A stretch of 64,000 nt of DNA from Rhodotorula mucilaginosa (lineage: Eukaryota; Basidiomycota; Microbotryomycetes; Sporidiobolales; Sporidiobolaceae), in contig CP137873.1 in assembly GCA_034406715.1 (NCBI GenBank), positions 186,001 to 250,000 of the forward strand, in the 5' to 3' direction. Numbering within the stretch: position 1 is the first letter of the stretch; each line of letters begins with the position of its first letter. The position numbers were made by a program, and so were the translations under genes. This document shows positions 12,644-33,984 of this stretch, piece after piece. A model generated the notes under the pieces. The model was not told where the DNA came from, made no database searches, and worked only from the letters and a program-made list of their open reading frames with translations.

Positions 12644-13146
12644 GACAGTGTCTCGCGGGAATGAAGGCGGGAAACATACGCACTCTCTACACTCGGACGA
12701 TTTCCCTGAAGCGAGAAGACGAGGGTTCCAACGGCGTCAGGGGGTTTCCAGTTCTCAGGCGGTCGTTGCTACGGCGGAATGCGTTCTCCTGCTGGGTGTT
12801 TGCATTCCTCATGGGGTCACCCCATGGCTCGCCATTGTAAACCTCGCGCTGTCTGTCCAGTTGAAAGAAGACGTCCTTTTTTTTTCTTTTGCCCTTTGCA
12901 CTCCGCCAGATCCAATCCACCACGGCTTTCCTGTGCAGCTTCGCGAGACATAGTCCGATCAAAGCACTCGTCGCTCTACTACTGCTCGCTACCGTCTTGC
13001 TCTTTCGACTGTTGCAGCAGCCTCGCCTCCTCCTCGCGAGCGAGCCCCACCCGGTTCACCACCACCATCAGCAACAGCAGCACACGCCGGACAAGCCGCT
13101 CGATTTTGCGACTCTGTCACCGCTCTACAAGAACAACAACGACAAG
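12644..13146 (+). other. mL58 / acyl-protein thioesterase intergenic region with an ATG-less in-frame open stretch
   Basis: From 12865 to 13146 the frame of the downstream thioesterase is open but has no ATG. It would encode a hydrophobic helix (ALVALLLLATVLLFRLL) followed by His/Gln-rich sequence. It may be 5' UTR, or an exon joined to an upstream start by an acceptor such as the CCAG near 12906. A T-rich run lies at 12877-12890. Confidence 0.4.
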
Positions 13147-14562: not shown

Positions 14563-14747
14563 ATATACCTCGCCTCGTAGAAGCGTGGAAATTGAAACGA
14601 AGAAGAGAGCTCGACTTGGCTCAACTACAGAACTGAGCCCGATGTGCTCGTCGCCCGTTCCGCGTCTCTGAATCGAGGCGCAAAACGAGACTCGGCTCGG
14701 CTTTCTTTCCTTCCGTCCCATCAATTTCACCTGGTACGAAGCGATAC

Positions 14748-16200
14748 ATGAGCGCAAGACAAGCACTCGGAGTGCTGCAACCGAGGACAGCGATCGTCCG
14801 CCGCTCGGCGTTGTTGGCAGCTGCTCGCTTCCACCCTCGCCGACTCGGATCCCCACTTCCTGCTCCTCCGGCTGCTGCTGCTGCTGCTCCTTTCTCAACA
14901 GCAGCGAGCAAACCGAGCCATGCAGCCGATTCGACTCCGACTCAGTCCCGTCCCCGAGTCGACCCACAGCAACCGCAAGAGGCGAAACAATCCCGTCGCG
15001 GACTCATCCTCCTCTCGTCCGCCCTCCTCTCGACGGGCCTCCTCGCCGGCATCGGCCTCACCTTCTTTGTCCCCCGTCCGCGCATCGTCTCGCTCGTCTT
15101 CCCCCTCCCGACGAATCACCCCCCGCCGCGAGAATCGCCCGAACATCGCGCGCATACGAAGGAGATCGAGAGGGACTTGATGCAGCTCGAGGTGGTCAAG
15201 CAGTTGCAGGCCGAGACCGTACCTGCACCGGCACCGACCAGCTCGGGAGAAGACCAGACTCCGACGGCAACGAAAGAAGGCACGCCGGCACCGCTCGTCA
15301 AAAAGTACACCGTCTCGCGCCCTTACGCGGCGACCCCTCCCGGCCCGCACTCCCTCAGCGCCTACACTCTCCGCGGTCCGGGCAAATTCGCCGTCCCTCC
15401 CTTGGTGTTTACGACGCAGGACAAGCGCGAGAGCGTCTTGATCTTGCATGTCGGCGACGGACTCTGTGGACATGAAGGGGTCGTCCATGGCGGGTTGTTG
15501 GCCACCGTTTTGGACGAGGCGCTCGGTCGAACGGTGAGTCGCTGCATTCAGTGGTGGATTACCTTATTCTCTCCTCACATAGAAGAGCAGTACGCTGATC
15601 TGGCATTTGGCGATCGACAATATCGCCCTCCCCAGGCTCTCCTGAACCTCCCAACCAACATCGGCGTGACCGCCACCCTCTCGCTCAAGTACAAAAAGCC
15701 GACGTTTGCGAACCAGTTCCTTGTCATCCGGACCGAGTTGACCGAACAGAGGGGGAGGAAAGCTTGGGTCAGGGGCAAGGTCGAGGACCTCGACGGGCAG
15801 ACTTTGGTCGAGGCAGAGTGAGTTTTTGTATTCTCTCCGGGTTTTCAGATCGGCCGGTGGCGGCGGCGGCGGCGGCAGCGTCGGGGATTCCTCTTCAACC
15901 ACTACGACAGGAGCTTGGGGCATCGACACCAAAAGAACCGAAGACGCAGAAAATTGACCGCCTCTTTATTTGTCTTCCCCCCCTCTCCTCTCACTTCCTC
16001 TCTACCGCACCGCTCCGCGCCATGCACTGCATCTCCGCCTCACTCCACCGACACTCCGCCCTCTCCGTCTCTGTCGACGCCTCACCACCCCTTGACTCGA
16101 AACGAACCTCCCTCGGCCGCCGATCAACAGAGCCCTCTTTGTTGAACCGCGGATGGCCCAGTTCCTGAGCAGTTCGAGCGTCCGCGAGGCACTCAAGTAG
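14748..16200 (+). CDS. Mitochondrial PaaI/4HBT-type acyl-CoA thioesterase-like protein
   Basis: Three exons (14748-15533, 15636-15817, 16131-16200) give 345 residues. Residues 1-60 are Arg/Ala-rich and acid-poor, like a mitochondrial presequence. A single membrane segment follows at about 84-108 (GLILLSSALLSTGLLAGIGL). The hotdog-fold core carries EGVVHGGLLATVLDEALGR (the HGG motif of PaaI-type thioesterases) in exon 1 and GVTATLSLKYKKPTFANQ in exon 2. The third exon encodes ALFVEPRMAQFLSSSSVREA and the stop. This matches the fungal inner-membrane Fmp10-like thioesterase group; the acyl-CoA substrate is not known. The second intron (15818-16130, 313 bp) is unusually long for this window and contains a GGC-triplet run. 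Confidence 0.82.
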
Positions 16201-16676: not shown

Positions 16677-18104
16677 TCACGTCTTGTCGATCGTCGCGAA
16701 CAAGTCGAACAAGATCTGCGCGGCGCCTTCCGTCTGACCGCTCGCCATCTTGGCCCGCACCGCTTGCCACGCTTCGGTAGGCTTGATCTCTTTCCAGTGG
16801 TCGACGACAAAGTCAAAGACGGTCTTGCGCAGCTTGTCGTAGGCGACCGAGACCGGACTGAAGAGCTCGTCGGGGGCGCTGTTGATCGTGAGACAGGAAG
16901 CGAACGAGTCGAGCGCCATCTTCTGCAGCTCGTCGCGCTCGAGGAGGTGGGCGAGGCGATAGACAGACTTTGGCGACACAGGGAGAGGCAAAGTCGGGTG
17001 TTCTCCCAAGCTGGTCGCGAGCGAGGCTCTGTGCATCGTGGCCAGCTGATCGGGCGGCAGCGCGTACGACGAGCGAATGGGCGCAAACTTGATGTGGCCG
17101 GTCTGGAGGTAGAGCAAGACGGCGCACATGGTCGAGTAAGCGGTCTCGCGAACCTCGATTTGCTGGTAGTCGAGCTCGGCCGTATCTTGCTTCGTCGTCG
17201 TGCAGCTCATCCAGTCGTGCTCGACGAGAAAGGCGTCCGTCTCATCGTCCGAGTCCTGCCAGTCAACGCTCAAATCGGGGCCTTTCGCTCGCGCGAAAGG
17301 CTTCTGCTCGGAGGTGCCACCCGGTCCGCGTTGGCGTTTCGACGTCCTGAGCGAAACCGTCTCTGCTGCGCCGGACGCGAAAAGAGCCTTGTAGTAACCG
17401 GAAGCTGTGCCGAGGAAGTCCGCCGTCGTCCACAGTTCGAGTTCGCGGCTGTCAACTTGCTTGAAGAGCAAGCGTACGTCCATGACCGGCGAGTGCGCAA
17501 GGTCTGGAACGTCACTACGTCAGCATGCGACAACAAAGGATACTCGAGAGAGTACGGGCGCACTCGCAAGCTGCAAAGCCTTCGTCGAGTCAGGCGTAGG
17601 AGTGCGATGCAAGCGCGCGACATCTCCCTCTGGCTCCTGCGTCAAGGTAATCGACACACGGTACTGCTGGAGGCTGCTCTGCACCGCGTGCGGTAACTTG
17701 CCCTTCGCGGCGAGTTCATTTCCCGAGCGCAAAAGCTTGTAACCGTTGAACGGCGAGCCCTTGGGGTCGCGCCCCGGATGCGGTTCTCTTGCGGGCCACG
17801 AAACGGTTTCAAACAGGCGCAGAGCACCGTCAGCAAAGTAGGCAAGCTCGCCCTTCACCGTGACGCGCTCTCCAAAGGCAGCGTACGCCAGATCCCCGTG
17901 TTTGACGTCGATGCTGAAATCATCGGCTTTGTTGATGAGGCTGAAGCTCCAGTTCCCGCGCAAAGGTACAGTTCCGAGCTTATCTTGCTCGAACTTGATC
18001 CCCTCTGGCGGCAGGTCCGAGAGCTTGGCTTTGAAGTCCCACGACATGCTGATGTTGTAGTCGGCCTTGACTTGTCCGCCGACATACTCGATCGGCGTCG
18101 GCAT
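16677..18104 (-). CDS. MATH-like plus BTB/POZ protein, cluster copy 1 (subfamily 1)
   Basis: Exons 18104-17564 and 17503-16677, a 60-bp GT-AG intron in phase 1, 455 residues. Residues about 1-180 are MATH-like: NISMSWDFKAKLSDLPPEG and a tryptophan-bearing PLRGNWSFSL strand, as in TRAF-C/MATH sandwiches. The BTB domain starts at the exon junction (HSPVMDVRLLF) with WTTADFLGTASGYYKALFAS, the 'aHk..L...S.yF.al' BTB pattern. An acidic insert (DWQDSDDETDAFLVEHDW) splits the BTB before ETAYSTMCAVLLYLQTGHI. A BACK-like helical part follows (SPKSVYRLAHLLERDELQ and onward). MATH-BTB proteins are known CUL3 adaptors that bring substrates to ubiquitin ligase; that role is inferred here. First of seven same-strand paralogues. 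Confidence 0.82.
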
Positions 18105-18249
18105 GGTCGCAGGTCTTCTTGCGTCGCTCGTCGCTTGTCGCTCGAGAAGCCTGCTGAGAAGAGACGATAGAAGAGCAACCGAACTCGGTCAAGCGTCGCG
18201 ACCCGAGCGCGCAGATCGGAGCAGCGTCGAGCAGCCTGACAGGCCGTAA

Positions 18250-18960
18250 GCGCAGCGTATGCGATGCCGTGCACGCACGGCGCGATCTGCTGGAAGGCGA
18301 GGTTGCGGCAGGAGGTCAAAAGGAGCGCCCCACCGATGAAGCGCTTCTCGACTTTTCCCTACTCACTATAGACTTTCCAAAGCTTGTAGCGTGGCCACTG
18401 ATAGCTGCTACGATTCAGCTCGAGCCACCGCTTTGCTGGCCGGGAGAGTCGACACCGCTGGAGCCGTTTCCAACCTCCCTCCGCAGCTTGCTGCAATCGA
18501 AACGCCACGCCTCCGTGATATACTCCTTGAACGGGCCGGCACGGAGCGAGAACATCATGACTGGATTGCCTCGACCTTGATGAGCTTGTCCTCTACGATT
18601 TTCGCTGCCTCCGGACAACTCCTGCTCCGCTTTTATCACTTCCAAGGTCGCCACTTCCGAAGCTGTGTTCACACAGATGCTAGAAGGTTCACGTGCTATG
18701 GACGGACGGACTGCCGCCCGCTAACTTGGCTTTCCAGGTGGCGACGTGAGGCCAAGCAGCACAGCGACTGTCTCGCTCGTTTCTTTCTCCCTGCGCGAGC
18801 GTCGGAGGGAACGAAGGGAGCTCACAGCGAAGCTTCGGCGCTCCGGAAGAAAGGGCACAGATAGATAGGGTGAAGAGAGGGCGACACTGCTGTTGACTGC
18901 ACTTCTTACACGAGCACGGGTAGTTGCCACCGAGACATGCAGGTCAAGCCGTTATTTCGA
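18250..18960 (+). pseudogene. Decayed upstream region and 5' part of an F-box gene beside copy 1
   Basis: This stretch aligns by eye with the regions next to copies 2, 4 and 6. Shared anchors are CACTATAGACTTTCC (about 18364), CACCGCTGGAGCCGTTTCC (about 18450) and the CTCCTGCTCCGCTTTTATCA segment (about 18616). Beside copy 4 the matching DNA leads into an F-box gene on the + strand. Here the frame is broken up and no long + strand frame remains. Called a remnant, not a gene. Confidence 0.5.
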
Positions 18961-19189
18961 AAAAGGCTCTCGGAGTTTCGCGACAGGATCAAGAGGCAAA
19001 GAGGGAAAAGCAGCTTTGCCCATGCTCGCAAACTTGTTATTCCAGCTGGAGTTGATGATCTCACTGAACGAGAGGAGGCGGCCGCCGGCGAAGAGAAAGA
19101 GAGAAAGATTCCATTCCAAGCGTAAGCAAGCATTCAGACTCGGCCACTAAACCCCACCCGCGTAACCGTATCCTCCGCTCAAAGAAGGC

Positions 19190-20611
19190 TCAAGTCTTGT
19201 CGATCGCCGCAAACAAGTTAAGCAAGATTTCCGCACCGCCTTCCAATTGTCCGCTCGCAATTTCGGCCCGCACCGCTTGCCACGCCTCCGTCGCCTTGAC
19301 CTCCTTCCAGTTCTTGACGACAAAGTCCAAGACAACCTGGCGCAGCTTGTCGTACGCGAGCGAGACGGGGCTGAAGAGCTCGCGGGCGGCGCCACTGATC
19401 GTGAGACTGGAAGCGAACGAGTCGAGCGCCAGCTGTTGAAGCTCGTTGCGCTCGAGGAGGTGCGCCAGGCGGTAAACCGATTTCGGCGAGACGGGTGGAG
19501 GCAGAGTCGGTTGCGCGTCCAAGGCTTCGACGAGCGAGGCTTTGCGCTTCGTGACGAGCGCGTCCGGCGGCAGAGCATGCGACGAGCGGATCGGCGCAAA
19601 CTTGATGTGGCCGGTCTGGAGGTAGAGCAGGACGGCACACATGGTCGAGTAGGCGGTCTCACGAGCCACGATCTGTTGATAGTCAAAGTTGACCGCGTCT
19701 TGCTTCGTAGTCGTGCAGTTCATCCAGTCACGTTCGACGAGAAAGGCGTCGGTCTCGTCGTCTGAGTCTTGCCAATCAGTGTTCGGATCGGGGCCGACGG
19801 CGCGAGCGAGAGGTTCCTGGTCGGAGGTGACACTCGGAACCCGCTGCCGTTTCGACCTGCTGAGCGTGACCGTTTCCGCCGCGCCGGACGCGAAGAGAGC
19901 TTTGTAGTAGTCAGAAGCTTTGCCGAGGAAGTGAGCAGTCGTCCAAAGCTCAAGTTTGACGCCATCAGCGTGCTTGAACAGCAGGCGTACGTCCATGACC
20001 GGCGAGTGCGAAAAGGCTGGAACGTCATTGACCGGTCAGCATTCCACGATAACGCATACTGAGAAGAGAGTGCGCGCACGCGCAAGCTGCAAAGCCTTCG
20101 TCGCGTCAGGCGTAAGAGTTCCGTACAAGCGCGTGACATCACCCTCGGGCTTCTGCGCAAAGGTGATCGTGAAGCGGTACTTCTGGACACTGCTTCGTAC
20201 GGCGGGCGGCAGACTTCCGAGTTCCTCGTCCGAAAGCGAGAACGGGTAGGAGCCGTACGCCGTGCCTTCCGCGTTCCGACCCGGCCTAGGTTCGCTCGCA
20301 GACCATGACTGGATATCAATTGTACGCAGCGTCCCGTCGGCAAAGTAGGCCAATTCGACCGTGACCGTAACGCGTTCTCCGTGCGCGGCGTACGCCAGGG
20401 GGCCATGGTGGACACGCATCTGTATTCGCCCTTTTTCGCTGGAGAGGCTGAAGCACCAGTCGCCGCGCAAAGGAACGGACCCGAGCTGTTCTTGCTTGAC
20501 CTTGATCCCCTTTGGCGGCAGGTCGGAGAGGTTGGCCTCGAAGTCCCAGGACATGCTGATGTTGTAGTCGGCTTTGACTCGTCCGCCCAGGTACTTGATT
20601 TGCTTCGGCAT
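19190..20611 (-). CDS. MATH-like plus BTB/POZ protein, cluster copy 2 (subfamily 1)
   Basis: Exons 20611-20080 and 20016-19190, a 63-bp GT-AG intron in phase 1, 452 residues. Same architecture as copy 1: MATH-like NISMSWDFEANLSDLPPKG, then BTB MDVRLLFKHADGVKLELWTT, the acidic insert DWQDSDDETDAFLVERDW, ETAYSTMCAVLLYLQTGHIK, and a BACK-like tail ending LLNLFAAIDKT. Exon 2 is exactly 827 nt, as in copies 1, 4 and 6. With the subfamily-2 gene to its right it forms one repeat unit (about 19.2-23.3 kb). CUL3-adaptor function is inferred from architecture. Confidence 0.82.
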
Positions 20612-20639
20612 GGTCGCAGCGCAGCGAGTCTTCTGGATA

Positions 20640-21420
20640 GGTAGTGTCGCGTGTCACTCGAGACTGAGTTTCGAGAAGCCCGCCGAAGAGCGGATGAAGA
20701 GCAATCGAACTCGGTCAAGCGTCGCGACTTGAGGATGCAGATCGGAGCGAGGTGTCGAGCTGCCTAGCCGAATCCAAGCGTATCGTGAGTAACGCAACGC
20801 ACGCGTGCGCGATCTGGCGGAAGGCGCGGTTGGGTCGAAGGTCAAGAGGTGCGCCACCTGATGAAACTCTTCTCGACTGCTCCCGTCCCACTATAGACTT
20901 TCCATAGCTTGGCGAGCGCACCGATAGAAGCTATGACTCAGTCCGATTCGCTGCTTGGCCGCCCGGGCAGAGTCTACACCGCTTGAGCCGTTGCCAGCCT
21001 CCCTCATCATCCGATGACGCGCGGCTATTAGACCAACCCCCCGCTACAACACTGCTCTAGCGAGTCGGTGCGGAGCGAGAATGTCAGAACAGGCCCGCCC
21101 AATTCTATGCGCTGATCGCCCTACCGTCTTTGCTGCCTCCGGAGAATCTGCTGCTTACCTTCCGTCAACTCGTCGCCACTCCCGAAGCTGAGAAGTGTTT
21201 ACGCTGCACTCGGTACTTTGGCTTTGACGGTCTGACCTACCCGCAATCATGTGCTTTATAGTCGTTACACCGTACGCACTCTGCCGCCCTGCCGCAGCCC
21301 ACCGCCGCCGACCTGACGCTCAAGCTTTACCGCTCTCAGCGCTCGTTTGCGACACGTTCGGCTCTCTTACTGTAGAGTTCGTCCGAAGCTTGGGCTGCTT
21401 TCGGATCCGAGGCTATATGT
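20640..21420 (+). pseudogene. Decayed F-box gene upstream region beside copy 2
   Basis: Homologous to 18.25-18.96, 25.36-25.94 and 31.32-32.10 kb. Anchors are CCACTATAGACTTTCC (about 20889), GTCTACACCGCTTGAGCC (about 20971) and a CGTCAACTCGTCGCCACT block (about 21163). The F-box reading frame seen after copy 4 cannot be followed here; the copy is heavily eroded. Confidence 0.45.
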
Positions 21421-21589
21421 ACCATCATGCTGGTATGAGAACCCCTCTCGCCCTCAGCAACACGAAGGCGATGACAGAAAGCGGCAGAGGGCAAACGAGA
21501 GAGGACCTACGCTACTAGCACTCCACGGACTTGCTGAAAATAGAGAAAGATGCTTCGGATGGGTAATGCCTAGACTCGCATGACCTGTG

Positions 21590-21780
21590 CCACCTGCGTG
21601 ACAGTCACCGACAAATTTCCTGGTCGCCGTTCTTCCTTCTCGATCGAGCGTAGCTTTCTGTCGGGCTGGCTCGGTCGTCTGTTTCGTCCGCATCGGTCTC
21701 GCTTGCAAGAAGCCAATGTATCGGCTTCGGAGCTACGGAAGGATGAACCCCATGGAAAAAGGCGGCGTACATAACGAGGA
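21590..21780. repeat. Conserved non-coding segment, unit copy 1 of 3
   Basis: This segment, just 3' of subfamily-2 copy 3, shares long words with 27355-27510 and 32225-32380, for example GTCGCCGTTC-like and TCGAGCGTAGCTTTCTG, then GGTCTCGCTTGCAAGAAGCC. It marks the same position in each duplicated unit (between the F-box slot and the subfamily-2 gene). It may be 3' UTR or a remnant of the F-box gene 3' end. Confidence 0.5.
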
Positions 21781-21845
21781 CCACGCGGATAGAAAAGACG
21801 AAAGCGGTTCGTTCTTTTCGCGGGAAGGGAACGGTTGAGGAGGTC

Positions 21846-23316
21846 CTACGTCGGCGTCTCGGAAGTCGCGCGTCTCGAGTCCTTACCGTGTAGCGCCTTC
21901 AGAAGGTCGAACGGGATTTGTGCGGCGCCTTCAATCTCGCCCGCCATCGCCTTCTCGCTCATTTCGACCCACGACTCGCTCGCCTGCACCTCCTCCCAGT
22001 TCTTGACGACGTAGTCGAGGACAATCTTGCGGACGCCGGTATAGGCGATGGAGACCGGACTGAACAGCTCACGGGCCGCTCCTTCAATCGTGAGACTATT
22101 CGAGAGGGCATCGAGGGCAAGTTGCTGGAGTTCCTCTCGCTGAAGAAGATGGGCGAGGCGGTATACTGATTTGGGCGTGACCGGCGGCGGCAGTGTCGGA
22201 TGTTCAGACACGTGCGTGTCGAGGAGCGCTCGACGCGTGGAAGGCCCATCTTCATCCAGCGTGACCAGCAGGGAACTGAGCGGCGCAAAGTCGATGTGGC
22301 CGGTCATGAGGTAAAGTAGGACAGCGCTCATCGTTGAGTAGGCTGTCTCGCGGACGTCGATCTGTTGATATTCCAGGTCGGTCGAGTGGTGTTTGGCCGT
22401 CTTGCATCCGGACCAATCGTGCTCGACGAGAAAATCGTCCGTTTCGTCATCCGAGTCTTGCCAATCGATCGTCGACTGCGCAGCACTGCTTTTGCCGGAA
22501 CTCTCCTGCTTGAAACGCGGTGGCGCTTCGCTGCGCTGACGCTTCGAACCAGTGGGAACCGTCTCGGCGCAGCCGGAAGCCAACAGCGTCTTGTAGTAAT
22601 CTGAGGCCGTCGCAAGTAGTCCCGAGGTAGTCCAGAGCTCGAGCTCGACGTCGTCGCGTCGTCCAAATCGTAGACGGACGTCCGAATGCCTCGTGTGGAG
22701 AGTGTCTAGCGGCGCAAGATCCAGAATCAGCATTGCGCTGAGCAAAGGCGAGAGATTTTTATGAAGACTTGCCGATCAGGCGTTGTGCTTTTGTTATGAC
22801 AGCAATGGGTGTACTATGGGCATGAGCCGTGTCCAACTGAAGATTGCGCAGGAGAGTGACTGAGTAGTTATACTGCTGCGCGCTGGTCTGCCGGCCGGTC
22901 GGCCAACGGCCGCTCGCCGCGAGTTTCTTTCGCGAGGCCGTAGAACAATAGGACATGTAGGCGGAGCACGTCCCTGGCGCAAGCCTGGGGGTCGGACTGC
23001 AAAGCCATGAATCTGTACTGAGCCGGCGCTCCTCCCCCTCGGCGAGCAGATTGGATCGGATCTTGACGGCGACGGAGTTGCCGAAAACGCCGACCGGCAA
23101 CTTCCCGAAACACACTCTGCCGTTGAGCTTGTCCGGGTCGTCCTCGGAATTGAACAACTCGAGCTGCCAGCTCCCCGGTAGCGGCACCGACTCGGGCGCG
23201 TCGAGGATGATCCCTTCTGGCGGAAGTTCGGAAAAGTTGGCTTTGAAACGCCAGCTGATTTCGATGGTGTCTTGGCGCTTGACTGCGCCACTGAGCAGCT
23301 CGACCGGCTCGGGCAT
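21846..23316 (-). CDS. MATH-like plus BTB/POZ protein, cluster copy 3 (subfamily 2)
   Basis: Exons 23316-22773 and 22705-21846, 467 residues. The intron starts GCAAGTCT and ends GCTAG, a GC-AG intron in phase 1. The ATG at 23316 gives MPEPVELLSGAVKRQDTIEI, matching the starts of copies 5 and 7; longer upstream frames lack support. MATH-like part: EISWRFKANFSELPPEG and PLPGSWQLELF. BTB: TLHTRHSDVRLRF, WTTSGLLATASDYYKTLLAS, acidic insert DWQDSDDETDDFLVEHDW, ETAYSTMSAVLLYLMTGHID, then a BACK-like region with LLQREELQQLALDAL. Subfamily 2 differs from subfamily 1 in the HTRH start of the BTB, the LLASGCAETVP segment and a longer C-terminus. Confidence 0.82.
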
Positions 23317-23931
23317 CGTCGCGTGTTCGTGCAGTGCGGAGGGTGCAAGACCGTGCGAGTGGCAGAAGGAGTGAGGTCGCACGAGGTCGACGTCGGCACG
23401 ATCGCGTTGGAGTGCTCAGCGTGCTCCACGGGAGCCCCAACGCGGGCTTGAGGTGCCTTCGATGCGTGCGGCCGACCTTGTGTAGCAGGAGAGCCAGGCA
23501 AACGAAGAGGAGCTGGGAAACGCAACGAAGAGAACGCGTCGACGAAAATTTTGCGCTTCGTCTAGCCTACACTCTGGAGCGGCGAGCTTCCTTTGACTCG
23601 AGCAGTCTAGGATGTAATCCCCCGAAGAAGAAAAATACGCAAGCGATGCGACTACTGAAAGCGAGGCATATTTCTCGCTTTGCAAATCTCAATCGCTGAT
23701 GTATTTTCACTTTTGCGCCCGACGCCCTGTGTCTTCAGCTCCGCCATTCCGATGCCGCAAAATGCGGGCATGGAACCGAGCATGGCGGGCCGCAGAGCGT
23801 CAGACAAAAAGGGCGAGGAGGGAAGTGATGGCGGTAAAAAAGAAAAGCGAAAGACCATTTCAAGCGCAAGCAAGCGTCCCGTTACCGCCACAGGCGTACC
23901 GCCCAACCGCGTCCGCCGCCCGACAGAGACT
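23317..23931. other. Spacer between cluster copies 3 and 4
   Basis: About 615 bp holding the promoter side of copy 3 and the 3' flank of copy 4. No gene is supported. Around 23830-23930 it resembles the 3' flanks of the other subfamily-1 genes (compare 19080-19180 and 29810-29890). Confidence 0.35.
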
Positions 23932-25357
23932 TCAAGTATTTTCGATTGCCGCAAGCAAGTCGAACAAAACCTGCGCGGCCCCTTCGGTCTGCCCGCTCGT
24001 CACTTTGGCCTGCGCCGCTCGCCATGACTCGGAGACCTTGATCTCCTTCCAGTTCTTGACGACGAAATCGACGACGACCTTGCGCAGCTTGTCGTAGGCG
24101 AGGGATACGGGGCTGAAGAGCTCGTCGGCAGCGCCGCTGATCGTGAGGCTGGAAGCGAGCGAGTCGAGCGCCATCTTCTGAAGCTCGTCGCGTTCGAGGA
24201 GGTGCGCCAGGCGGTAAACCGACCTGGGCGACACGGGAGGAGGCAGAGTCGGCCGCTTTTTCAAGCTGTTCGCACGCGAAACGTTCCGCTTGGTGGCGAG
24301 CTCTTCAGGCGACAAAGCATGCGACGAACGAATCGGTGCAAACTTGATGTGGCCCGTCTGCAGGTAGAGCAAGACGGCGCACGTGGTTACGTAGGCGGTC
24401 TCGCGAACCTCAATCTGCTGGTAGTCGAAGTCGGCCGCGTCTTGCTTCGTCGTTGTGCAGCTCATCCAATCGCGCTCGACGAGAAAGGCGTCCGTTTCGT
24501 CATCCGAGTCTTGCCAGTCGACGCTCGGATCGGGGCCCGCGGCGCCGGCGAGAGGTTTCTGTTCGGAGACGACACTCGGGCCTCGTTGGTGTTTCGACCT
24601 GCTGCGCGTGACCGTCTCCGCCGCGCCGGACGCAAAAAGGGCTCTGTAGTACCCGGAGGCTTTGCCGAGGAAGTCCGCCGTCGTCCACAGTTCGAGTTCG
24701 CGGCCGTCAGCTTGCTTGAAGAGCAAGCGTACGTCCATGAGCGGCGAGTGCAAAAGACCTGGAACGCCATTCAGTCAGCATGTGACGACAAAGAACACTC
24801 ATAAAGAAATGGGGCGTACTCGCAAGCTGCAAAGCCTTCGTCGAGTCAGGCGTAGGAGTGCAGTGCGAGCGCGCGACATCTCCCTCGGGCTTCTGAGCAA
24901 AGGTGATCGTGAAGCGGTACTTCTGGACACTGCTTTGTACGGCGGGCGGCAGACTTCCGAGTTCCTCGTCCGAAAGCAAAAGCCGAAACGGGTAGGAGCC
25001 GTATGTTCTGCCTTCCGCGTTCCGGCCCGGCTTAGGTTCAGTCACAGGCCACGACTGGGTTTCGATTATACGCAGCATCCCGTCGGCAAAGTAGGCCAAT
25101 TCGGCCGTAATCGTAACGCGTTCTCCAAGTGCACCATACGGCAGAGGTCCATGTCCGACACGCATCTTCACTTGATCGTCTTTGCTGGTGAGGTCAAAGG
25201 ACCAATCACCGCGCAAAGGAACGGATCCGAGCTTCTCTTGCCCGACCTCGATCTCGTCTGGCGGCAGGTCGGAGAGCTTGGCTTCGAAGTCCCAGGACAT
25301 GACGACGTGGTAGTCGGCTTTGACTTGTCCGTTGAAGAACTTGACAGGCGTCGGCAT
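23932..25357 (-). CDS. MATH-like plus BTB/POZ protein, cluster copy 4 (subfamily 1)
   Basis: Exons 25357-24820 and 24758-23932, a 61-bp GT-AG intron in phase 1, 454 residues. MATH-like VVMSWDFEAKLSDLPPDE and PLRGDWSFDL; BTB MDVRLLFKQADGRELELWTT; acidic insert DWQDSDDETDAFLVERDW; ETAYVTTCAVLLYLQTGHIK; BACK-like tail to LLAAIENT. The ATG at 25357 lies about 580 bp from the F-box exon on the other strand, the only place in the cluster where the divergent F-box partner is still largely open. CUL3-adaptor role inferred from domain order. Confidence 0.82.
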
Positions 25358-25937
25358 GGTCGCGGAGCGGCGAGTTTTCTTCTCGACTGGGCGGTGGTCG
25401 GTCCTCGCCTCAAGAGGAAGAGGGAGAGCGATCGGAAAGCCGTCGCGAGTCGAGAGCGCAGATCGTAGCGAGGCGTCGAGCTGCCTGTCCAGCTAGAAGC
25501 GTATCGTATGCGACGCCACGCACGCGCGGCGCGTTCTGCCGGGAGGCGAGGTTGTGGCAGGAGGTCAAGAGGAGGCGCCGACTGATGAAACTCTTCTCAT
25601 CTTCGCCTCACTTGCTATACACTTTCAGAACCCGGCGAGGACCGCCGTATGAAGTGCTGACCAACGCCGCTCGCCCGCTCTGCCACCACGGGAAGTCTAC
25701 ACCCCCCGAGCCATTTCGACCCTCCTTCTCATCGGCTCGCCTCGATCAAGAGGCCAAGACCAAGCTACGCAGCGCATCCGACAGCTCGGAGTAGGACGAA
25801 GAGGCCAACTATGACGTCTTCCGACGCTGTGAGCCGGTCAGATCCCACTTCTGCCGCCTCCGCAAGCTCTATAATCAGCTGCCCCACTTTCATCACCTCG
25901 TCTCCGCTATCTCGACGCTGACAGGTCGACTGTGTAG
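25358..25937. promoter_or_regulatory. Shared divergent upstream region between MATH-BTB copy 4 and the F-box gene
   Basis: About 580 bp between divergent genes, conserved in four places of the cluster (also upstream of copies 1, 2 and 6). Anchors are the TTGCTATACACTTTC element (about 25611) and ACCCCCCGAGCCATTTC (about 25701). A possible first F-box exon with an ATG at about 25811 lies at its right end, but its donor could not be placed convincingly. Bidirectional promoter function is inference. Confidence 0.4.
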
Positions 25938-27189
25938 GAGATCGGGATATCTCAACTGTGCGACCTACCCGAATACATATGCCAACTCGTCTGCGACGCC
26001 GTGCGCGACCTCCCGCGCGCCGTCGCCGCCTCGACCCTCTCGTCGCTCTCGCTCGTCTCGCGATCGTGGATGGCAGCAGCCCAATCCACTCTGCACCACG
26101 ATCCTTTCCTCTCATTCGACGCACCCGACACGATCGCTCCCCGGACGTTCGAGCGGCTTAGCGCTCTCCTCCGAACACTCCTCGCGAGACCTGATCTGTC
26201 TCGATCGGTCCGCAAGTTCGATCTGGGTTGCTACACTACCCGCTGCCAGACCGAAGCGCGCATCGACCGCCGAAGGGTTTCGACGCTTTCGGTCGATACC
26301 GTCGCGGCTTGTCCCGCGCTCAAGTCGCTCTCGCTGCCGTTCGCCACGCAGGCCGACAAACCTTACTTGATCGATGCGTTGCGCAAGCTCGAGCTCCTCG
26401 AAACGCTCGTCATCGGGGAGGGCACCTCGAGTCCTGATCCGTGGGTCATCAACGTCGACATCGGAATCAAAGACCCCTGGGGCTGCGCTCGCTGGTTCCG
26501 CGAGGACTTTGTCGCGCTGTCCGGACACTGGCCACGGATGCGGCGCCTAATCCTCGAAGCCCGGGTGCGGACCCGAGAGAGGGGACGACGAGTCTGGCGT
26601 ATCGTGGCAGCTGGAAGACTTCCGCTTGGACCTGCAACGGCACGGCCAACTAGCATTCCGCCAAATTGACCTTCTTTTGGCGGGCAGTCGAAACGGGTCG
26701 CTCAGGCGCCTTGACGTCAAAGAGCATCAGCTCGCAGACGACGCGCTGGCGCAACTCGTCGAGCACTACGGGTCAAACCTTACATCCTTGACGACCTTGA
26801 CGGCGGACCACTTTACGAGACACGACGAACTCTTTCCGGCAATCGCCGCATTCTGCCCTTCCCTCCGCTTCGTACACCTTTCGACGCCGATCTACGACCT
26901 CCTGCCCTGCCTGCAGCACCTCCTTCAATCTTCCAAGCTACAACGCCTCACTCTCTCCACTGTCGTCGCTCCTGCCAGGTCTTCGCCCGACTTGGTCGTC
27001 GAGGTGGTCCCCCTTGTTCAGAACGCTCGGAGCCTCGACCAGCTCAACATTGCACCCGGCACGCATTATGTCATGGACCGCAGTAACACCATCGCGTTTG
27101 CACAAGTTCTGGCGGAAGCGTCGCGGACTCTGGCTTCTTTCGATTCGAAGGCGACTTTAACTCTCTTGCCAACTTGGGGACCCATGTAG
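25938..27189 (+). CDS. F-box/LRR-like protein, divergent partner of MATH-BTB copy 4 (5' end unresolved)
   Basis: Exon 25938-26564 and exon 26611-27189 join in phase 0 across a 46-bp GT-AG intron, giving about 400 codons. The first exon begins with an F-box-like segment, LPEYICQLVCDAVRDLPRAV, followed by STLSSLSLVSRSWMAAAQST, the usual 'LP.Ei...I...L....L.sLslVsR.W...A' pattern. The rest has leucine-rich repeat-like strands (ALKSLSLPF, LELLETLVIG, SLRRLDVKEHQLADDALAQL). No in-frame ATG lies between the stop at 25935 and 26070, so a 5' exon (acceptor TAG at 25937) is needed, or the gene has lost its start. F-box proteins recruit substrates to SCF (CUL1) ubiquitin ligases. Confidence 0.55.
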
Positions 27190-27973
27190 CGTTTAAATAA
27201 CACAATGCGCATCGTTTACAGGACTAAGACAGGACAAGAGAAGAGAGGTACCTGCATCACGACACCATCAAGCGTATCAACAGAAGGAGAGAGATGAAGC
27301 GGTACATGGAGGGATTGACTCTAGCTTTACAAGACGGGATTTTCGCTGTCGTATGGCGGTCACAGACAATCTGAACTTCTTGCTGCCACTCATTTCAAGC
27401 TCGGCCATTGTTTACTTGCTGTTCTCCGTTTTCGCGAACGCAGCTTTCTGCTTTCTGTCGGGCTTCCTCGGTCGTCTGATTCCCTTTGCCCGAGTCGGGC
27501 TCGCTCATCAAAAATCAAAGGCTTGACATGGGAAAAACAGGCAAACGCATCACATGGAAAAGTGCACATGCAGAACAAGATCAAGCACAGCAGCAAAGGA
27601 AAGACAGGGGAAACGAGAGGGGAAATGTATCGCGGAGAGTTCTCGTCTCGGGCAGGGACTGTGCAGAGCGAGTGCGAATCGTTAGATAATGCAATAGAAA
27701 CAAGCTATGCACGATGCTACGTACCTGTGCAGAGCGAGTGCGAATCGTGAGGAAAACCACAAGATCCGACTCGCTCGCACAGGTCATCAAGGCGAGGCTG
27801 AGTGGCGAGGCCAAGCCTTCCGATGACGAGGACGACGAAACGCGAGACGATGAAGATGACGGAGCTGGGGAAACGAGGGGAGAAGTCGGGGCAACGAGCC
27901 AACGGGCGAAAGTGAGAAGGCCGTCACTTCGCGCCTCCAACAAAATGGACCGGGTGCGCGAGATCGCGAGGTT
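27190..27973. other. Spacer with conserved segment, unit copy 2 of 3, and a 23-bp direct repeat
   Basis: 27355-27510 matches 21590-21780 and 32225-32380 (TTTCTGTCGGGCTTCCTCGG and following). At 27660-27682 and 27726-27748 a 23-bp sequence starting TGTGCAGAGCGAGTGCGAAT occurs twice in direct orientation, start to start 66 bp apart. No gene is supported; short open frames here are not conserved in the other units. Confidence 0.45.
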
Positions 27974-29431
27974 CTACTGTTCTTTCGAGTCCTTCCCATG
28001 CAGGGCACTCAGGAGATCAAAGGTAATTTGCGCGGCGCCTTCAATCTCGCCCGCCATCGCCTTCTCGCGCATTTCGTTCCACGACTTGCTTGCCTGCACC
28101 TCCTTCCAGTTCTTGACGACGTAGTCGAGGACGATCTTCTTGACCTCGGCGTAGGCAATTGAGACGGGACTGAACAATTCCAGCGCCGCCCCTTCGATCG
28201 TGAGACCGGAAGAAATGGTATCGAGGGCGAGTCGCTGCAACTCTTCTAGCTGGAGAAGGTGCGCAAGGCGGTAGACCGACTTGGGCGAGACCGGTGGAGG
28301 CAACGTTGGGTGCTCAAGTGTGTGTTTGTCGAAATTCGCTCGACGCGCGGCAGTACGATCTTCATCCAGCGTGATGAGTAGAGAACCGAGTGGCGCAAAG
28401 TCTATGTGACCGGTGGCGAGGTAAAGAAGTACCGCATTCATTGTCGAGTATGCGGTCTCGCAGACATCGATTTGTCGGCATTCCAGGTCGGTCGAGTCGC
28501 AACTCGCGGTCTTGCACCCGGACCAGTCGCGCTCGACGAGAAAATCATCGGTTTCGTCGTCCGAGTCTTGCCAGTCAATCGTCGGTTGCACAGGACTTGT
28601 TTGTACAGACGGCTTGTGCTCGATAGGTTGTGGAACCTCGTTGCGCTTCCGCTCCGCGCCACAAGGTACCGTCTCGGCGCAACCGGAGGCCAACAAGGTT
28701 TTGTAGTAGCCCGAAGCGGCCGTGAGCAGTCCTGAAGTAGTCCAGAGCTTGAGATCGATGTTGTCAGGCCGACGGAATCGGAGGCAGACATCCGCATGCC
28801 TCGTATGGAATGAACCTGGGGAGCGAAGGAAAACAGGATGATCAGCAACGTTGGAAGACGAGGCAAGAGATCGCGACGCAGACTTGCCGGCCAAGCGTAG
28901 CGCCTTTGTCAGGTCGGCGGTGGGTGTACTGTGGATGTGAGCCTTGTCGAGCTGAACGTCGCGTTCGAGGACGAGCGTACAGCAATACTGGTGCACGCTG
29001 TTCTGCTCGCGCTTCGACCAGCGGTCATTCGTGGCGAGTTCCTCCCGCGACGACGAAACGCTGTAGCAATCGTAGGACCGTGCTGTGTTGGGTGCGGGAG
29101 CTGGCTCTGACCCATTGTCCCACGAGTCCTCGAGAAGTCGCCGCCTGAACTCGCCAATGACGAGATCGAAATGGAGCTTGACGGTGACGGATTTGCCAAA
29201 GGCGCCAACTGGCAGGCTTCCGTGAGTCGCGTTAACTTCGAGACTGTCCGTATCGTCTGCTTCATCGAGTATCATGAGCTTCCAGCTTCCCGGCAGCGGC
29301 ACCGGTCCAGGTGCGTCGAGGGTAATTCCTTCGGGCGGAAGCTTGGACAGGTTCGCTTGAAATTGCCAGTTGATTTCGATGGTCTCTCGGCGCTTAACCG
29401 CGCCACCGAGCCGTTTGGCTGACGCTGGCAT
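27974..29431 (-). CDS. MATH-like plus BTB/POZ protein, cluster copy 5 (subfamily 2)
   Basis: Exons 29431-28888 and 28815-27974, 461 residues. The intron starts GCAAGTCTGC and ends CCCCAG (GC-AG, phase 1). The whole region also reads open without splicing, but the spliced form restores the exact join seen in copies 3 and 7. MATH-like IEINWQFQANLSKLPPEG and PLPGSWKLMIL; BTB SFHTRHADVCLRF, WTTSGLLTAASGYYKTLLAS; acidic insert DWQDSDDETDDFLVERDW; ETAYSTMNAVLLYLATGHID; BACK-like LLQLEELQRLALDTI. Tail ends LLSALHGKDSKEQ. Confidence 0.82.
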   Translation of the reverse strand: MPASAKRLGGAVKRRETIEINWQFQANLSKLPPEGITLDAPGPVPLPGSWKLMILDEADDTDSLEVNATHGSLPVGAFGKSVTVKLHFDLVIGEFRRRLLEDSWDNGSEPAPAPNTARSYDCYSVSSSREELATNDRWSKREQNSVHQYCCTLVLERDVQLDKAHIHSTPTADLTKALRLAGKSASRSLASSSNVADHPVFLRSPGSFHTRHADVCLRFRRPDNIDLKLWTTSGLLTAASGYYKTLLASGCAETVPCGAERKRNEVPQPIEHKPSVQTSPVQPTIDWQDSDDETDDFLVERDWSGCKTASCDSTDLECRQIDVCETAYSTMNAVLLYLATGHIDFAPLGSLLITLDEDRTAARRANFDKHTLEHPTLPPPVSPKSVYRLAHLLQLEELQRLALDTISSGLTIEGAALELFSPVSIAYAEVKKIVLDYVVKNWKEVQASKSWNEMREKAMAGEIEGAAQITFDLLSALHGKDSKEQ

Positions 29432-29895
29432 GATCGCGTACGCCGATCAAAGCGTGGAGGTCGATGTTGGCTGCGTCACGCGGCCGTGCTTCTTCAAGCG
29501 TCACAACGCACACGCGAGGATCGGTCCAAGAGTTTAGTCTGCCTGGCCAAGCCGGCGCCTGAAGCGACAAAGCGAAGCAGAGTCGAGATCGAGAAAGAGA
29601 GAGAACGAGAGAGAAGACGACGGACGCGAAGACGTGCGAGCGACGGACGGATCGATGAACGCGATGAACGCGCGTCTGGAGCAAAATTTTGCACACGGCT
29701 CGGACTACGCTTGCGGACAATGGACTCTCTTCTCGCGACCTAGCTCGAGCGGTTCAGTAATCAGAAGCGACTTGAAGACGCGAGGTGATCACCTCGAGCG
29801 AAAGAACAACCGCAACATGAAGAGAAAGAACGATTTCAAGCGTAAGGAAGCGTCAAGTCTCCGCCGATGACCACCGCGCCCGACTACGAGGCGCT
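29432..29895. other. Spacer between cluster copies 5 and 6
   Basis: About 460 bp holding the upstream side of copy 5 and the 3' flank of copy 6. A purine-rich GAGAAAGAGAGAGAACGAGA run lies at about 29590-29612. No gene is supported. Confidence 0.35.
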
Positions 29896-31321
29896 TCAAG
29901 TGTTGTCAACCCCGGCAAGCAAGTCCAGCAAAACTTGCGCACCACCTTCCGTCTGCCCGCTCGCCACTTTGGCCCGCGCCGTGTGCCACGCCTCCGTCGC
30001 CCTGACCTCCTTCCAATGCTTGACGACGAAGTCGACGACAACTTTGCGCAGTTTGTCGTAGGCGAGCGAGGCCGGACTGAAGAGCTCGGCAGCGGCGCCG
30101 TTGATGGTGAGGCTGGAGGCGAACGAGTCGAGCGCCAGCTTTTGAAGTTCCTCGCGCTCGAGAAGGTGGGCGAGGCGGTAGACAGACTTTGGCGACACGG
30201 GTGGAGGCAGAGTCGGCTGCTTTTTCAAACTCTCCGCGCGTGAAGCGATCCGCCGGCTGGCGAGCTCGTCTCGATGCAGAGCGTGTGACGAACGAATCGG
30301 TGTAAAGTCGATGTGGCCGCTCTGCAAGTAGAGCAAGACTGCGCACATGGTGGAGTACGCAGTCTCGCGGACCTCAATCTGTCGATAGTCGAAGTCGGCC
30401 GTGTCCTGCTTCGTCGTCGTGCAGCTCATCCAGTTGCGCTCGACAAGAACGGCGTCCGTTTCGTCGTCCGAGTCCTCCCAGTCGACCTTCGGATCGGAAC
30501 CGGCGGCACAGATGAGAGGCTTCTGTTCAGACGTGACACTCGGGCCTCGCTGACGTTTTGACCTCCTGCGCGTGACCGTTTCGGTGCTGCCGGACGCGAA
30601 AAGAGCTTTGTAGTACCCGGACGCTTTGCCGAGAAAGTCCGCAGTCGTCCAGAGTTCAAGGTCGAGGTCGTCAGCTCGCTTGAAAAGCAAGCGTACGTCC
30701 ATGTGCGGCGAGTGTGAAAGATCTGGAACGCCGGATAGTCAGCATTTGAAGAAGTTGAATGTTGAGGACAATTGGCATACTCGCAAGCTGCAAAGCTCTG
30801 GTCAAATCAGGTGTAGAGGTGTGGCATAGGCGCGTGACATTCCCCTCTGGCTCCTGCGTTATGGTGATCGAAACGCGGTACTGCTGGAGGCTGTTTTGCA
30901 GGGCGCGCGGCAACCTTCGCTCATCCGCGAGTCTGCTCTTGGAAAGCGGAAACGTGTAGGCGCAAAACGGCGAGCCTTCTGTATCCAGTCTGGGCTGCGC
31001 ACCTCTGACGGGCAATGCAACGGCATAAAACAGGCGCGGAGCACCGTTGGCGAAGTAGGAAATTGCGCCCCTGACCATGACGCGATTTCCGAGTGCAGCA
31101 TGGGGCAACCCGCCATGCTTGATTTCGATAACGAGATCATCGGCTTCGCCGTTGAGGCTGAAGCACCAATCACCGCGCAAGGGGACGGCTCCGAGCTGTT
31201 CTTGCTGGATGTCGATCCCCTCCGGCGGCATATCGGAGAACTTGGCTTTAAAGTCCCACGACATGGTGACGTGGTAGTCGGCCTCAACCTGTCCGCCGAC
31301 GTACTCGATCGGCGTCGGCAT
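29896..31321 (-). CDS. MATH-like plus BTB/POZ protein, cluster copy 6 (subfamily 1)
   Basis: Exons 31321-30781 and 30722-29896, a 58-bp GT-AG intron in phase 1, 455 residues. The ATG at 31321 (MPTPIEYVGGQVEADYHVTM) matches copy 1; a longer open frame upstream has no family support. MATH-like VTMSWDFKAKFSDMPPEG and PLRGDWCFSL; BTB MDVRLLFKRADDLDLELWTT; acidic insert DWEDSDDETDAVLVERNW; ETAYSTMCAVLLYLQSGHID; tail LLAGVDNT. It forms a repeat unit with copy 7. Confidence 0.82.
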
Positions 31322-32110
31322 CGTCGTAGTCTGCTGTGCTCGCCGGTCCGGTGGTCGCTCCTCGTTCGAGAACTGCTCCGACTCGAGCGCGCAAATCGGA
31401 GCGAGGCGTCGAGCTACCTGCCCTAGATCTCGATTGGCGTATTGTATGCAACGCCCTGCACGCGCGGCGCGACACGTCGGAGGGCGGGTCTGTGGTTGAA
31501 GGTCAAGCCGGCCAAGAGGAGCGCCGATTGATGAAGCGCTTCTCGACTTCTCCCGATTCACTATAGACTTTCTGAAGCCTGGCGAGGATAGCGATAGCTG
31601 CTATGATCCAGCTTGATCCATTGCCTTGGTGCCCGGAAGAGTCTACACCGCTGGAGCCGTTTCCACCCTCCCTCGCGGCTTGCTGCAATCAAGAGGCTGA
31701 TCCTCGGCTATACACTGCCTCAAATGGGTCGCACCGGCGCGAGACTGACAGGACTGGACTGCTTCGACTCTACGAGCGGTTATCCTACCATCTTTGCTGC
31801 CCCTCCGGGGACCTGCTGCTCCGCTTTCATCACCTCGTCGCCACTGCCGAAGCTGTGCCGGGTTCACGCTGTGGCACATGCAGTTCTCCCATTACGTGGT
31901 GTGCCCGAAGAACTATGCGAGCCTTTGCTACCTGCTCGCGACCTCCCGCGAGCCGTCGTCTCCTACGACACCCCTCTTGCTCGTCTTCGACTTTCGACTC
32001 ACTTTGTTCTGGACTTTGGCCTAAGCGTCGATACTTCTGGCTTCCTCCAGAGTCGAAGCCTATGGTCAGCATCTTGCTGGCATGTGGACGCCTTTAGCTC
32101 TCTGTGATCC
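31322..32110 (+). pseudogene. Decayed F-box gene and upstream region beside copy 6
   Basis: The best preserved remnant. ATTCACTATAGACTTTC (about 31556) and the TACACCGCTGGAGCCGTTTC block (about 31644) match the other units. Around 31903-31950 a peptide PEELCEPLL...ARDLPRAVVS resembles PEYICQLVCDAVRDLPRAVA of the F-box gene at 25.9 kb. The frame then stops at about 32024, whereas the intact copy continues for another kilobase. Best read as a truncated F-box pseudogene. Confidence 0.55.
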
Positions 32111-32224
32111 AAACGCATTCTCAGAAAACCACGAGGGCAAAGAAACGAGGACCTACCGCCACCACCCTTATGGAATCGATACAGAGAGGTGGTGCATGGA
32201 ATGTGTGATGCCTTGGTGTAAACT

Positions 32225-32380
32225 ACTTCACCTCAATGGCGGTCACTGCCAAACATTCTAGTCGCCGTTCCTGTTTCTCTCGAGCGTAGCTTTCTGCCAA
32301 GCTGGCTCGGTCATCTGCGCGGACGTCCTTCACGGCCGCCTCGGTCTCGCTTGCAAAAAGCCGATGTCTTGGCCCGGAAG
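32225..32380. repeat. Conserved non-coding segment, unit copy 3 of 3
   Basis: Matches 21590-21780 and 27355-27510 (CTCGAGCGTAGCTTTCTGCC, then GGTCTCGCTTGCAAAAAGCC). Same position relative to the subfamily-2 gene as in the other two units, supporting tandem duplication of the whole unit. Confidence 0.5.
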
Positions 32381-32496
32381 AGACCAGAGAAAGGAGCACA
32401 GGGAGAAGCATGACATGCATATATAGGAACAGGCGCAACAACAACCGTAAGTCGGAAGGGATTCTTCCTCGCGAGAAGGAACGATCGGGAGGGGTC

Positions 32497-33984
32497 CTAC
32501 GTCGACTTTGCGGGAGTGGTACGAATCAACCCCTTCGTGTGCAGCTCCCTCAGAAGGGCGAAAGAGATCTGCGCGGCGCCTTCAATCTCGCCCGCCATCG
32601 CCTTCTCGCTGATTTCGTTCCAAGACTCGCTCGCCTGCACCTCCTCCCAGTTCTTGATGACGTAGTCGATGACAGTATTTCGGACGTCAGCGTAGGCGAT
32701 CGAGACGGGACTGAACAACTCGTGTGCTGCCCCTTTCGGCGTGAGACTCGTCGTGAGGGCATCGAGGGCGAGTTGTTGCAGTTCTTCACGTTGGAGAAGG
32801 TGAGCAAGGCGGTAGACTGACTTTGGCGACACAGGCGGCGGCAGCGTCGGGTGAATGGAGATGTATCGGTCGAGGAAGGTTCGTCGCGAGCTAGTACCGT
32901 CGTGACTGCGCGTCTCGAGTAGAGAGTTGAGCGGTGCGAAATCGATGTGGCCGGTCATGAGGTACACCAGGACGGCGTTCATCGTCGAGTAGGCAGTCTC
33001 GCGGACATCTATTTGTTGATATTCCAGGTCGGTTGAGTCGTGTTTGGCGGTCTTGCATCCGGAGCAATCGCGCTCGACGAGAAAGTCGTCCGTTTCGTCG
33101 TCCGAGTCGTGCCAATCGATCGTCGGCTGCGCAGGACTGCCATTTCCAGACGACTTGTGCTCGAGAGGCGGTGGAGCTTTGCCGCGCTTGCGCTTCGAGC
33201 CAGAAGGGATCGTCTCGGCGCAGCCGGAAGCCAGGAGAGTCTTGTAGTAGTCGGAAGCCGTCGCAAGCAGTCCCGAGGTGGTCCAGAGTTCGAGATCGGC
33301 GTCATCCGGCCGCAGGAATTGCAGGCAAATGTCCGCATGCCTTGTATGTAGAACTCCTAGGGGGTGAAAAAAAAAAAGGAAAAAACACGGGATCAGCGAC
33401 GCGATGGTAAGCTGGCAGGATCCCTGTGGAGGAAAGAACTTGCTGGCCAAGCAATGTGCTTTAAGTACATCGGCGGTTGGAGAGATATGGGTACGAGCCG
33501 TACCCGGCTGCAGGTCGCGGAGAAAGGTGATGGTACAGCAGTATTGCTGCACGCTCTCCTGCTCGCTCGTCGGCCAGCGACCGGCCGCAGCGAGTTTGCT
33601 TCGCGACGACGGACAAGCGTACGAGCCGTAGGAGCAGAATAGGTGGGGCACGAGAGCTGGTTGCACCTCACTGCTCCATGCCTCCTCATGAAGCAGGCGC
33701 AGCTGGCCCGCGCCGACGACCCGAGCGAAAGAGACCTTGACGGCGACGGATCGGCCAAAGGCCCCGACGGGCATGGATCCGTGCTGGAACGTCACGCGAA
33801 GGGTGTCTGGGTCGTCGCTGTCGTTCTTGAGCTCGAGCTGCCAATTCCCCGGCAGCGGCACCGGGCCTGGCGCGTCAAGAATGACTCCCTGGGGCGGAAG
33901 GTCGGACAGGTCCGCTTCGAAGTGCCAGCGGATCTCGACGGTGTCCGTGACCGAGCCGCCGAGCTGCTTCACCGACGTATGCAT
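32497..33984 (-). CDS. MATH-like plus BTB/POZ protein, cluster copy 7 (subfamily 2)
   Basis: Exons 33984-33444 and 33356-32497, 466 residues. The 87-bp intron starts GCAAGTTC and ends CCCTAG (GC-AG, phase 1) and contains a pyrimidine run. MATH-like VEIRWHFEADLSDLPPQG and PLPGNWQLEL; BTB VLHTRHADICLQF, WTTSGLLATASDYYKTLLAS; insert DWHDSDDETDDFLVERDC; ETAYSTMNAVLVYLMTGHID; BACK-like LLQREELQQLALDAL. Last gene of the cluster. Confidence 0.82.
   Translation of the reverse strand: MHTSVKQLGGSVTDTVEIRWHFEADLSDLPPQGVILDAPGPVPLPGNWQLELKNDSDDPDTLRVTFQHGSMPVGAFGRSVAVKVSFARVVGAGQLRLLHEEAWSSEVQPALVPHLFCSYGSYACPSSRSKLAAAGRWPTSEQESVQQYCCTITFLRDLQPGTARTHISPTADVLKAHCLASKFFPPQGSCQLTIASLIPCFFLFFFHPLGVLHTRHADICLQFLRPDDADLELWTTSGLLATASDYYKTLLASGCAETIPSGSKRKRGKAPPPLEHKSSGNGSPAQPTIDWHDSDDETDDFLVERDCSGCKTAKHDSTDLEYQQIDVRETAYSTMNAVLVYLMTGHIDFAPLNSLLETRSHDGTSSRRTFLDRYISIHPTLPPPVSPKSVYRLAHLLQREELQQLALDALTTSLTPKGAAHELFSPVSIAYADVRNTVIDYVIKNWEEVQASESWNEISEKAMAGEIEGAAQISFALLRELHTKGLIRTTPAKST

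Follow-up and report, generated by a model that had tools for sequence, protein, structure and literature searches.

The window analysed here, 64,000 nucleotides of Rhodotorula mucilaginosa DNA (C10:186001-250000), carries a tandem array of seven genes, W1 to W7 from low to high coordinate, which probably encodes a diversifying family of substrate receptors for CUL3-RBX1 ubiquitin ligases, built like SPOP. Predicted structures, exon-by-exon divergence, codon site models and comparisons between strains carry this reading.

The array and its relatives in the genome

All seven genes lie on the minus strand within 16677-33984, and splice modelling gives each of them two exons, with products of 455, 452, 467, 454, 461, 455 and 466 amino acids and no internal stops, which bears out the original prediction of seven same-strand, two-exon open genes of 452-467 residues. 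Splice sites were predicted from sequence, with phase 1 imposed and CTRAY branch motifs scored higher; the single predicted intron of each gene measures 58-87 nt, and the motif that the model favours is present in 7/7. The genes fall into two subfamilies, A-type (W1, W2, W4 and W6, with predicted GT-AG introns in 4/4) and B-type (W3, W5 and W7, with predicted GC-AG introns and the donor GCAAGT in 3/3). The two types mostly alternate, the transcript order being B A B (F-box-like) A B A A.

Searches of the whole genome (20.35 Mb, 19 contigs) gave 30 matches to W5 and 23 to the W1 BTB exon, which were then mapped exon by exon. The array is not a chance arrangement, since the genome yields at least 15 close members and the closest paralogue matches at E 4e-280. 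They comprise seven in the window, four in cluster A (A1 to A4, C10:131.7-140.1 kb), three on the plus strand in cluster C (C1 to C3, C10:260.3-265.8 kb) and one, F15, at C15:91.4-92.9 kb. The three clusters, with 14 of the 15 members, occupy one 134-kb stretch of C10.

Open frames are found in 13 of the 15. A3 (C10:134158-135612) has one in-frame TAG and A4 (C10:131.7-133.6 kb) is interrupted. The public prediction P0016 from CCFEE 5036 (Rhodotorula sp.), the counterpart of A3, is without the residues around the stop, which suggests that the stop is common to both strains. A4 was excluded from the pairwise-identity tables and from the dN/dS (ratio of nonsynonymous to synonymous substitution rates, omega), recombination and selection counts; A3 was excluded from the selection models and kept, with its stop column skipped, in the synonymous-divergence and runs tests. 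Within subfamilies, protein identity ranges over 67-86% for the BTB exons and 47-95% for the MATH exons (14 members, without A4).

More distant BTB relatives lie on contigs C11 (four), C9, C2 and C6. Those at C11:585.8-591.6 kb (L023, L024, L025 and L027) stand in tandem as a second, more remote group of four BTB genes whose C-terminal halves are similar; a search at E 1e-6 found no similar MATH exon in this group.

Predicted MATH-BTB-BACK architecture

An AlphaFold model of W5 (the open frame, with the intron read through) reached a predicted local distance difference test (pLDDT) score of 84.6, and its closest structural match is full-length human SPOP, a MATH-BTB-BACK CUL3 adaptor. The model comprises an N-terminal MATH (TRAF-like) fold, a BTB fold C-terminal to it, and BACK/3-box helices thereafter, between residues 383 and 484. 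When W5 exon 1 was folded alone (pLDDT 87.3), its best matches were the SPOP MATH domain, USP7 and TRAF, and 49 of the best 50 aligned entries were titled SPOP, USP7 or TRAF. The predicted structures thus support a MATH-BTB-BACK architecture for the array proteins, the fold of W1 being assigned by homology to W5, and they uphold the MATH-BTB identity first proposed for these genes, as both folds appear in the model.

Sequence profiles, proposed earlier as a check on that identity, gave a divided result. Single-sequence Pfam scans of the array open reading frames (ORFs) returned no MATH and no BTB, which we do not read as absence. The Pfam MATH model matched nowhere in the genome, and neither did the control; the MATH domain has likely diverged beyond the reach of this model. 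In the BTB-BACK half, however, the best sequence-profile match was again SPOP, at residues 280-341. Comparison of the MATH profiles with SPOP MATH by hhalign was not significant (E 0.083), so that its register serves as a hint only. A search for homologues over the exon 1 region gave four proteins, two of them from Rhodotorula.

Mosaic history of the two exons

MATH and BTB exons do not share a single history. For W5 and C2, synonymous divergence is 0.06 between the MATH exons and 0.57 between the BTB exons, and for W2 and W4 it is 0.23 and 0.55, whereas for W6 and C1 the order is reversed (0.75 MATH, 0.30 BTB). Because the contrasts go in both directions, no exon-wide rate difference explains them, and selection alone is insufficient, as it makes no such contrasts at synonymous sites. 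In a Sawyer-type runs test on silent sites, 0/2000 permutations were as extreme as the data for both the A-type (8 sequences) and the B-type (6). Tested by exon (Fisher, Bonferroni-corrected within each set), W5/C2 was significant (5e-6) and W1/A3 marginal (0.02); on this smaller set of sites, W2/W4 (0.11) and W6/C1 (1.0) were not significant.

Windowed DNA identity resolves cluster C in the same manner. The 5' flank of C1 and the F-box-like gene are 82-99% identical to those of W4 in 150-nt windows, the MATH core of C1 (C10:260533-260861) has just 57-68% DNA identity to W4 or W6, and the BTB 3' half of C1 with the region downstream of it, up to the MATH exon of C2, is 89-99% identical to W6-W5, after which identity falls to 71-91% in the BTB exon of C2. 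The idea that cluster C arose as a straightforward inverted duplicate of some of the window array was considered and rejected on the strength of this mosaic, which fits gene conversion or unequal crossing-over.

A signal of positive selection in the MATH exons

Site models M7 and M8 were custom-written, with branch lengths taken from IQ-TREE. A signal of positive selection is present in MATH, clear for the B-type (twice the log-likelihood difference 16.7, p 2.3e-4) and borderline for the A-type (5.9, p 0.053; chi-square); in the BTB exons it is not significant (p 0.25 and 0.33). With the more stringent M8a/M8 comparison, p was 0.009 and 0.008 for MATH and 0.083 and 0.070 for BTB. In data simulated under M7 for the MATH exons, the observed value was reached in 0/40 replicates for the B-type (largest 5.3) and 0/24 for the A-type (largest 3.5). 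A site class with omega above 1 is found in MATH, while omega in the BTB exon is about 0.2; the mean MATH omega is 1.7 times (B-type) and 2.4 times (A-type) that of BTB, yet below 1. The dN/dS check suggested at the outset for MATH returned a positive signal.

The selected sites are not scattered evenly. Among the 18 B-type sites listed, eight lie in residues 53-72, within one beta-hairpin (p 1e-4, for a range chosen afterwards), and three of the four A-type sites with P >0.7 share columns with listed B-type sites (p 0.003). Site 67 meets Tyr87 of SPOP in the non-significant hhalign register given above. The SPOP substitution Y87N abolishes MyD88 binding (PMC7618200).

An insertion at the putative CUL3 contact

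All 15 close members carry a 64-67-residue insertion between the glutamate of the phi-x-E motif, expected to contact CUL3, and strand beta-4. In SPOP, this glutamate and beta-4 are nearly adjacent; our SPOP alignment shows the glutamate side of the pair. The insertion is therefore placed at the edge expected to touch CUL3, with the possible effect of gating, altering or blocking the binding. It holds a basic patch followed by the acidic motif DSDDETD, which is near-invariant (C2 has DSNDETD, A4 DSDNETD); among 115 collected relatives, the loose motif [DE]SD.E.[DE] occurs in 104 and the basic motif in 43. The phi-x-E glutamate itself is conserved in 15/15, with a small phi residue (Ala, Cys, Ser or Gly). 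RhoBTB2 still binds Cul3 despite an insertion that is larger and sits at another place in its first BTB domain (PMC1257465).

Candidate partners of such an adaptor are present in the organism. Three cullin genes and a weak fourth match were found. The gene on contig C3 is closest to Cullin-3, the gene on contig C15 is closest to Cullin-1, and the third gene lies on contig C18; 6/8 zf-rbx1 matches are over the cut-off (RBX1 and others together). From domain order, predicted fold and these partners, we infer that the array proteins are CUL3 adaptors.

Strains and related species

P0001 of R. mucilaginosa JCM8115 (JCM8115_001037) is identical to C2 (100% in both exons). The same strain also carries P0009, whose best matches in the present genome reach just 80% in the BTB exon and 74% in the MATH exon. 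The public predictions from CCFEE 5036 skip or add stretches; over aligned residues they are 100% identical to A1 and A3, and 92-100% identical to W7 per 40-residue window. P0013, the CCFEE 5036 counterpart of W1, is 97-100% identical from W1 residue 223 to the end, 85% at 183-222, and 72% and 57% in two N-terminal blocks, its exact N-terminal half being uncertain because P0013 is a truncated gene prediction. On sequence comparison, this strain would thus pair the BTB half of W1 with another MATH half. As the protein database is clustered at 90%, per-strain copy counts cannot be read from it. The proposal of strain differences and of diversification in the MATH half gains support from exon divergence, permutation, selection and the strain comparisons together.

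Hypothetical or ‘BTB/POZ-like’ proteins of Rhodotorula, Rhodosporidiobolus, Sporobolomyces and Leucosporidium (within P0025-P0115) have a similar BTB-BACK half, and most of them carry the acidic loop motif, as the array proteins do; they differ in that 35/50 of the proteins P0025-P0074 align over at most 63% of W5, fragments included. The alignment of relatives holds 64 of the 74 proteins collected. In Rhodotorula pacifica, two sets are probably tandem, because their locus tags are consecutive (003349-003352 and 007188-007191).

Feature coordinates and surroundings of the array

Table 1 Features of the array, in window coordinates
Feature	Position	Strand	Description
W1	16677..18104	-	A-type MATH-BTB, 455 aa; exon 1 18104-17564, exon 2 17503-16677
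W2	19190..20611	-	A-type, 452 aa; exon 1 20611-20080, exon 2 20016-19190
W3	21846..23316	-	B-type, 467 aa; exon 1 23316-22773, exon 2 22705-21846; GC-AG
W4	23932..25357	-	A-type, 454 aa; exon 1 25357-24820, exon 2 24758-23932
F-box-like (LRR-like) gene	26001-27189	+	Pfam F-box-like E 0.027, below cut-off
W5	27974..29431	-	B-type, 461 aa; exon 1 29431-28888, exon 2 28815-27974; GC-AG
BTB insertion of W5	28481-28672	-	same place in other members
W5 MATH exon	28889..29431	-	structure modelled alone
W6	29896..31321	-	A-type, 455 aa; exon 1 31321-30781, exon 2 30722-29896
W7	32497..33984	-	B-type, 466 aa; exon 1 33984-33444, exon 2 33356-32497; GC-AG

The original prediction gave the array ‘F-box partners’. 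One F-box-like gene was found there, with its frame interrupted in the window; partners in the plural were not confirmed, and the case for an F-box partnership is weak. The gene is duplicated together with the A-type gene next to it. Its copy in cluster C (C10:259.0-259.9 kb, minus strand) reads through the same stretch, and the two copies share 92% protein identity over the first 194 residues. The interrupted window frame may represent a pseudogene or a sequence error. The lone PF12937 match over the cut-off in the window, at 55280-55414 on the minus strand, is outside the array, 21 kb away. The PF12937 search gave no match over the cut-off in the array; it missed the ORF at 26001 as well and did not include PF00646, so that weak F-boxes could have escaped it.

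The B-type GC-AG introns are located at 22706-22772, 28816-28887 and 33357-33443; C3 instead fits a GT donor. The intron of W5 is in frame; in the public prediction P0001, the corresponding intron is read as coding sequence. Upstream of A-type genes, flanking DNA is repeated at 20725-21206 and 31379-31871 (about 70% identity), and the stretch at 31.3-32.1 kb is likewise repeated at C10:135.6-136.4 kb (about 70%). The flanks at 2783-15821 and 52000-61955 look like ordinary genes, among them an aminotransferase, an Npa1-like ribosome biogenesis protein, a phospholipase/carboxylesterase, a 4HBT thioesterase, a sphingolipid desaturase, an AAA_5 ATPase and a V-ATPase E subunit.

Proposed function and alternatives

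In the mechanism that we favour, the N-terminal MATH domain would grip a short peptide of the target, while BTB and BACK/3-box would join the dimer to CUL3, so that CUL3 binding, peptide binding and target degradation are the activities expected of these proteins. The locus would diversify by tandem and segmental duplication together with gene conversion or unequal crossing-over, through which new MATH (sensor) halves could meet a conserved BTB (effector) half. The selected sites cluster on a MATH strand that corresponds, on a weak alignment, to the Tyr87-bearing strand of the SPOP substrate groove, and for this reason the selected property is probably which protein gets recognised.

By analogy, a role in defence or genome conflict may be suggested. 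A bolder version, which we offer as doubtful, makes the C10 clusters a receptor-diversity locus in which MATH exons are recombined onto a fixed BTB-CUL3 half for ubiquitin-based recognition of non-self or selfish elements, with the acidic loop as a phosphorylation-controlled gate. If so, strains would differ in the proteins that they mark for destruction.

Several observations weigh against a family of SPOP-like receptors. We regard the selection evidence as good but not final, because recombination breaks the single-tree assumption and the mean MATH omega is below 1. The expected CUL3 contact, judged from sequence, also seems unusual in the array proteins, given the insertion and the small phi. 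Those two features, with the acidic and basic motifs shared among relatives, speak for an unlikely alternative in which the proteins have given up CUL3 and serve as BTB scaffolds or as regulators of transcription or chromatin; MATH would then bind partners without degradation, and the basic patch and DSDDETD loop would form a nuclear-import, kinase-controlled segment. Against it, the BACK/3-box half is kept, SPOP is the best sequence match in that half, and the genome has a CUL3-like gene and zf-rbx1 matches.

The two broken copies, the disrupted frame of the F-box-like neighbour and the mean MATH omega, raised over that of BTB yet below 1, further count against adaptive receptors and would suit the neutral birth and death of a dispensable, non-adaptive family, in which relaxed constraint and routine gene conversion account for copy number and MATH divergence. 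This we consider less probable still, in view of the 13 fully open copies, the low BTB omega beside a MATH class above 1, null simulations of which none was as extreme, and the coincidence of A- and B-type selected sites. Strain-specific members, and an analogy to the F-box antidotes of Caenorhabditis (PMC12680543), would accord with antidote or drive elements, every receptor counteracting a selfish toxin or an incompatibility factor linked to it. This is the least probable of the explanations and a very improbable one: no linked candidate factor was identified (the repeated A-type upstream flanks were not examined for genes), and the F-box-like gene repeats beside both the window cluster and cluster C. 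SPOP-like, diversifying CUL3 receptors thus remain our preferred reading.

Recognition of fast-changing proteins is the role proposed for the expanded MATH-BTB families of worms and grasses. To our knowledge, the targets of these families are mostly unknown, and their hosts are complex organisms. What drives such a family would be simpler to find in a unicellular yeast that carries 15 or more close members (14 within 134 kb). Replacement of MATH from strain to strain offers natural experiments, while from the conserved BTB insertion there arises a specific question, open to testing, on how CUL3 assembly is controlled. As the family escapes standard domain models, counts of fungal MATH-BTB genes may be too low.

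Comparison with known systems

The array is a variation on a known theme, since expanded and positively selected MATH-BTB families have been described. No report of the array was found in searches of an open-licence library, subscription journals being mostly outside it, and no paper there contained both ‘Rhodotorula mucilaginosa’ and ‘BTB domain’. New here are a fungal family unseen by standard profiles, a conserved BTB insertion, and MATH and BTB exons that recombine. With SPOP, the proteins share the domain order MATH-BTB-BACK and the predicted fold of all three parts; they differ in their low identity (about 10-16% in structural alignments), in the insertion with its acidic motif, in the small phi, and in forming a multi-copy array.

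C. elegans has an expanded set of 46 MATH-BTB genes (PMC1257465), with positive selection reported in substrate-binding and not in Cullin-binding domains (PMC4334554), and the grass families are likewise expanded (PMC6883508). The array resembles both in its lineage-specific expansion. In contrast, it belongs to a basidiomycete yeast, is missed by the Pfam MATH and BTB models, places MATH and BTB on separate exons with mosaic histories, and consists of two mostly alternating subfamilies. Fungal NOD-like receptors, finally, also form variable repertoires of recognition proteins (PMC4986451); they are other proteins with another output, whereas the array is a predicted set of ubiquitin-ligase adaptors.

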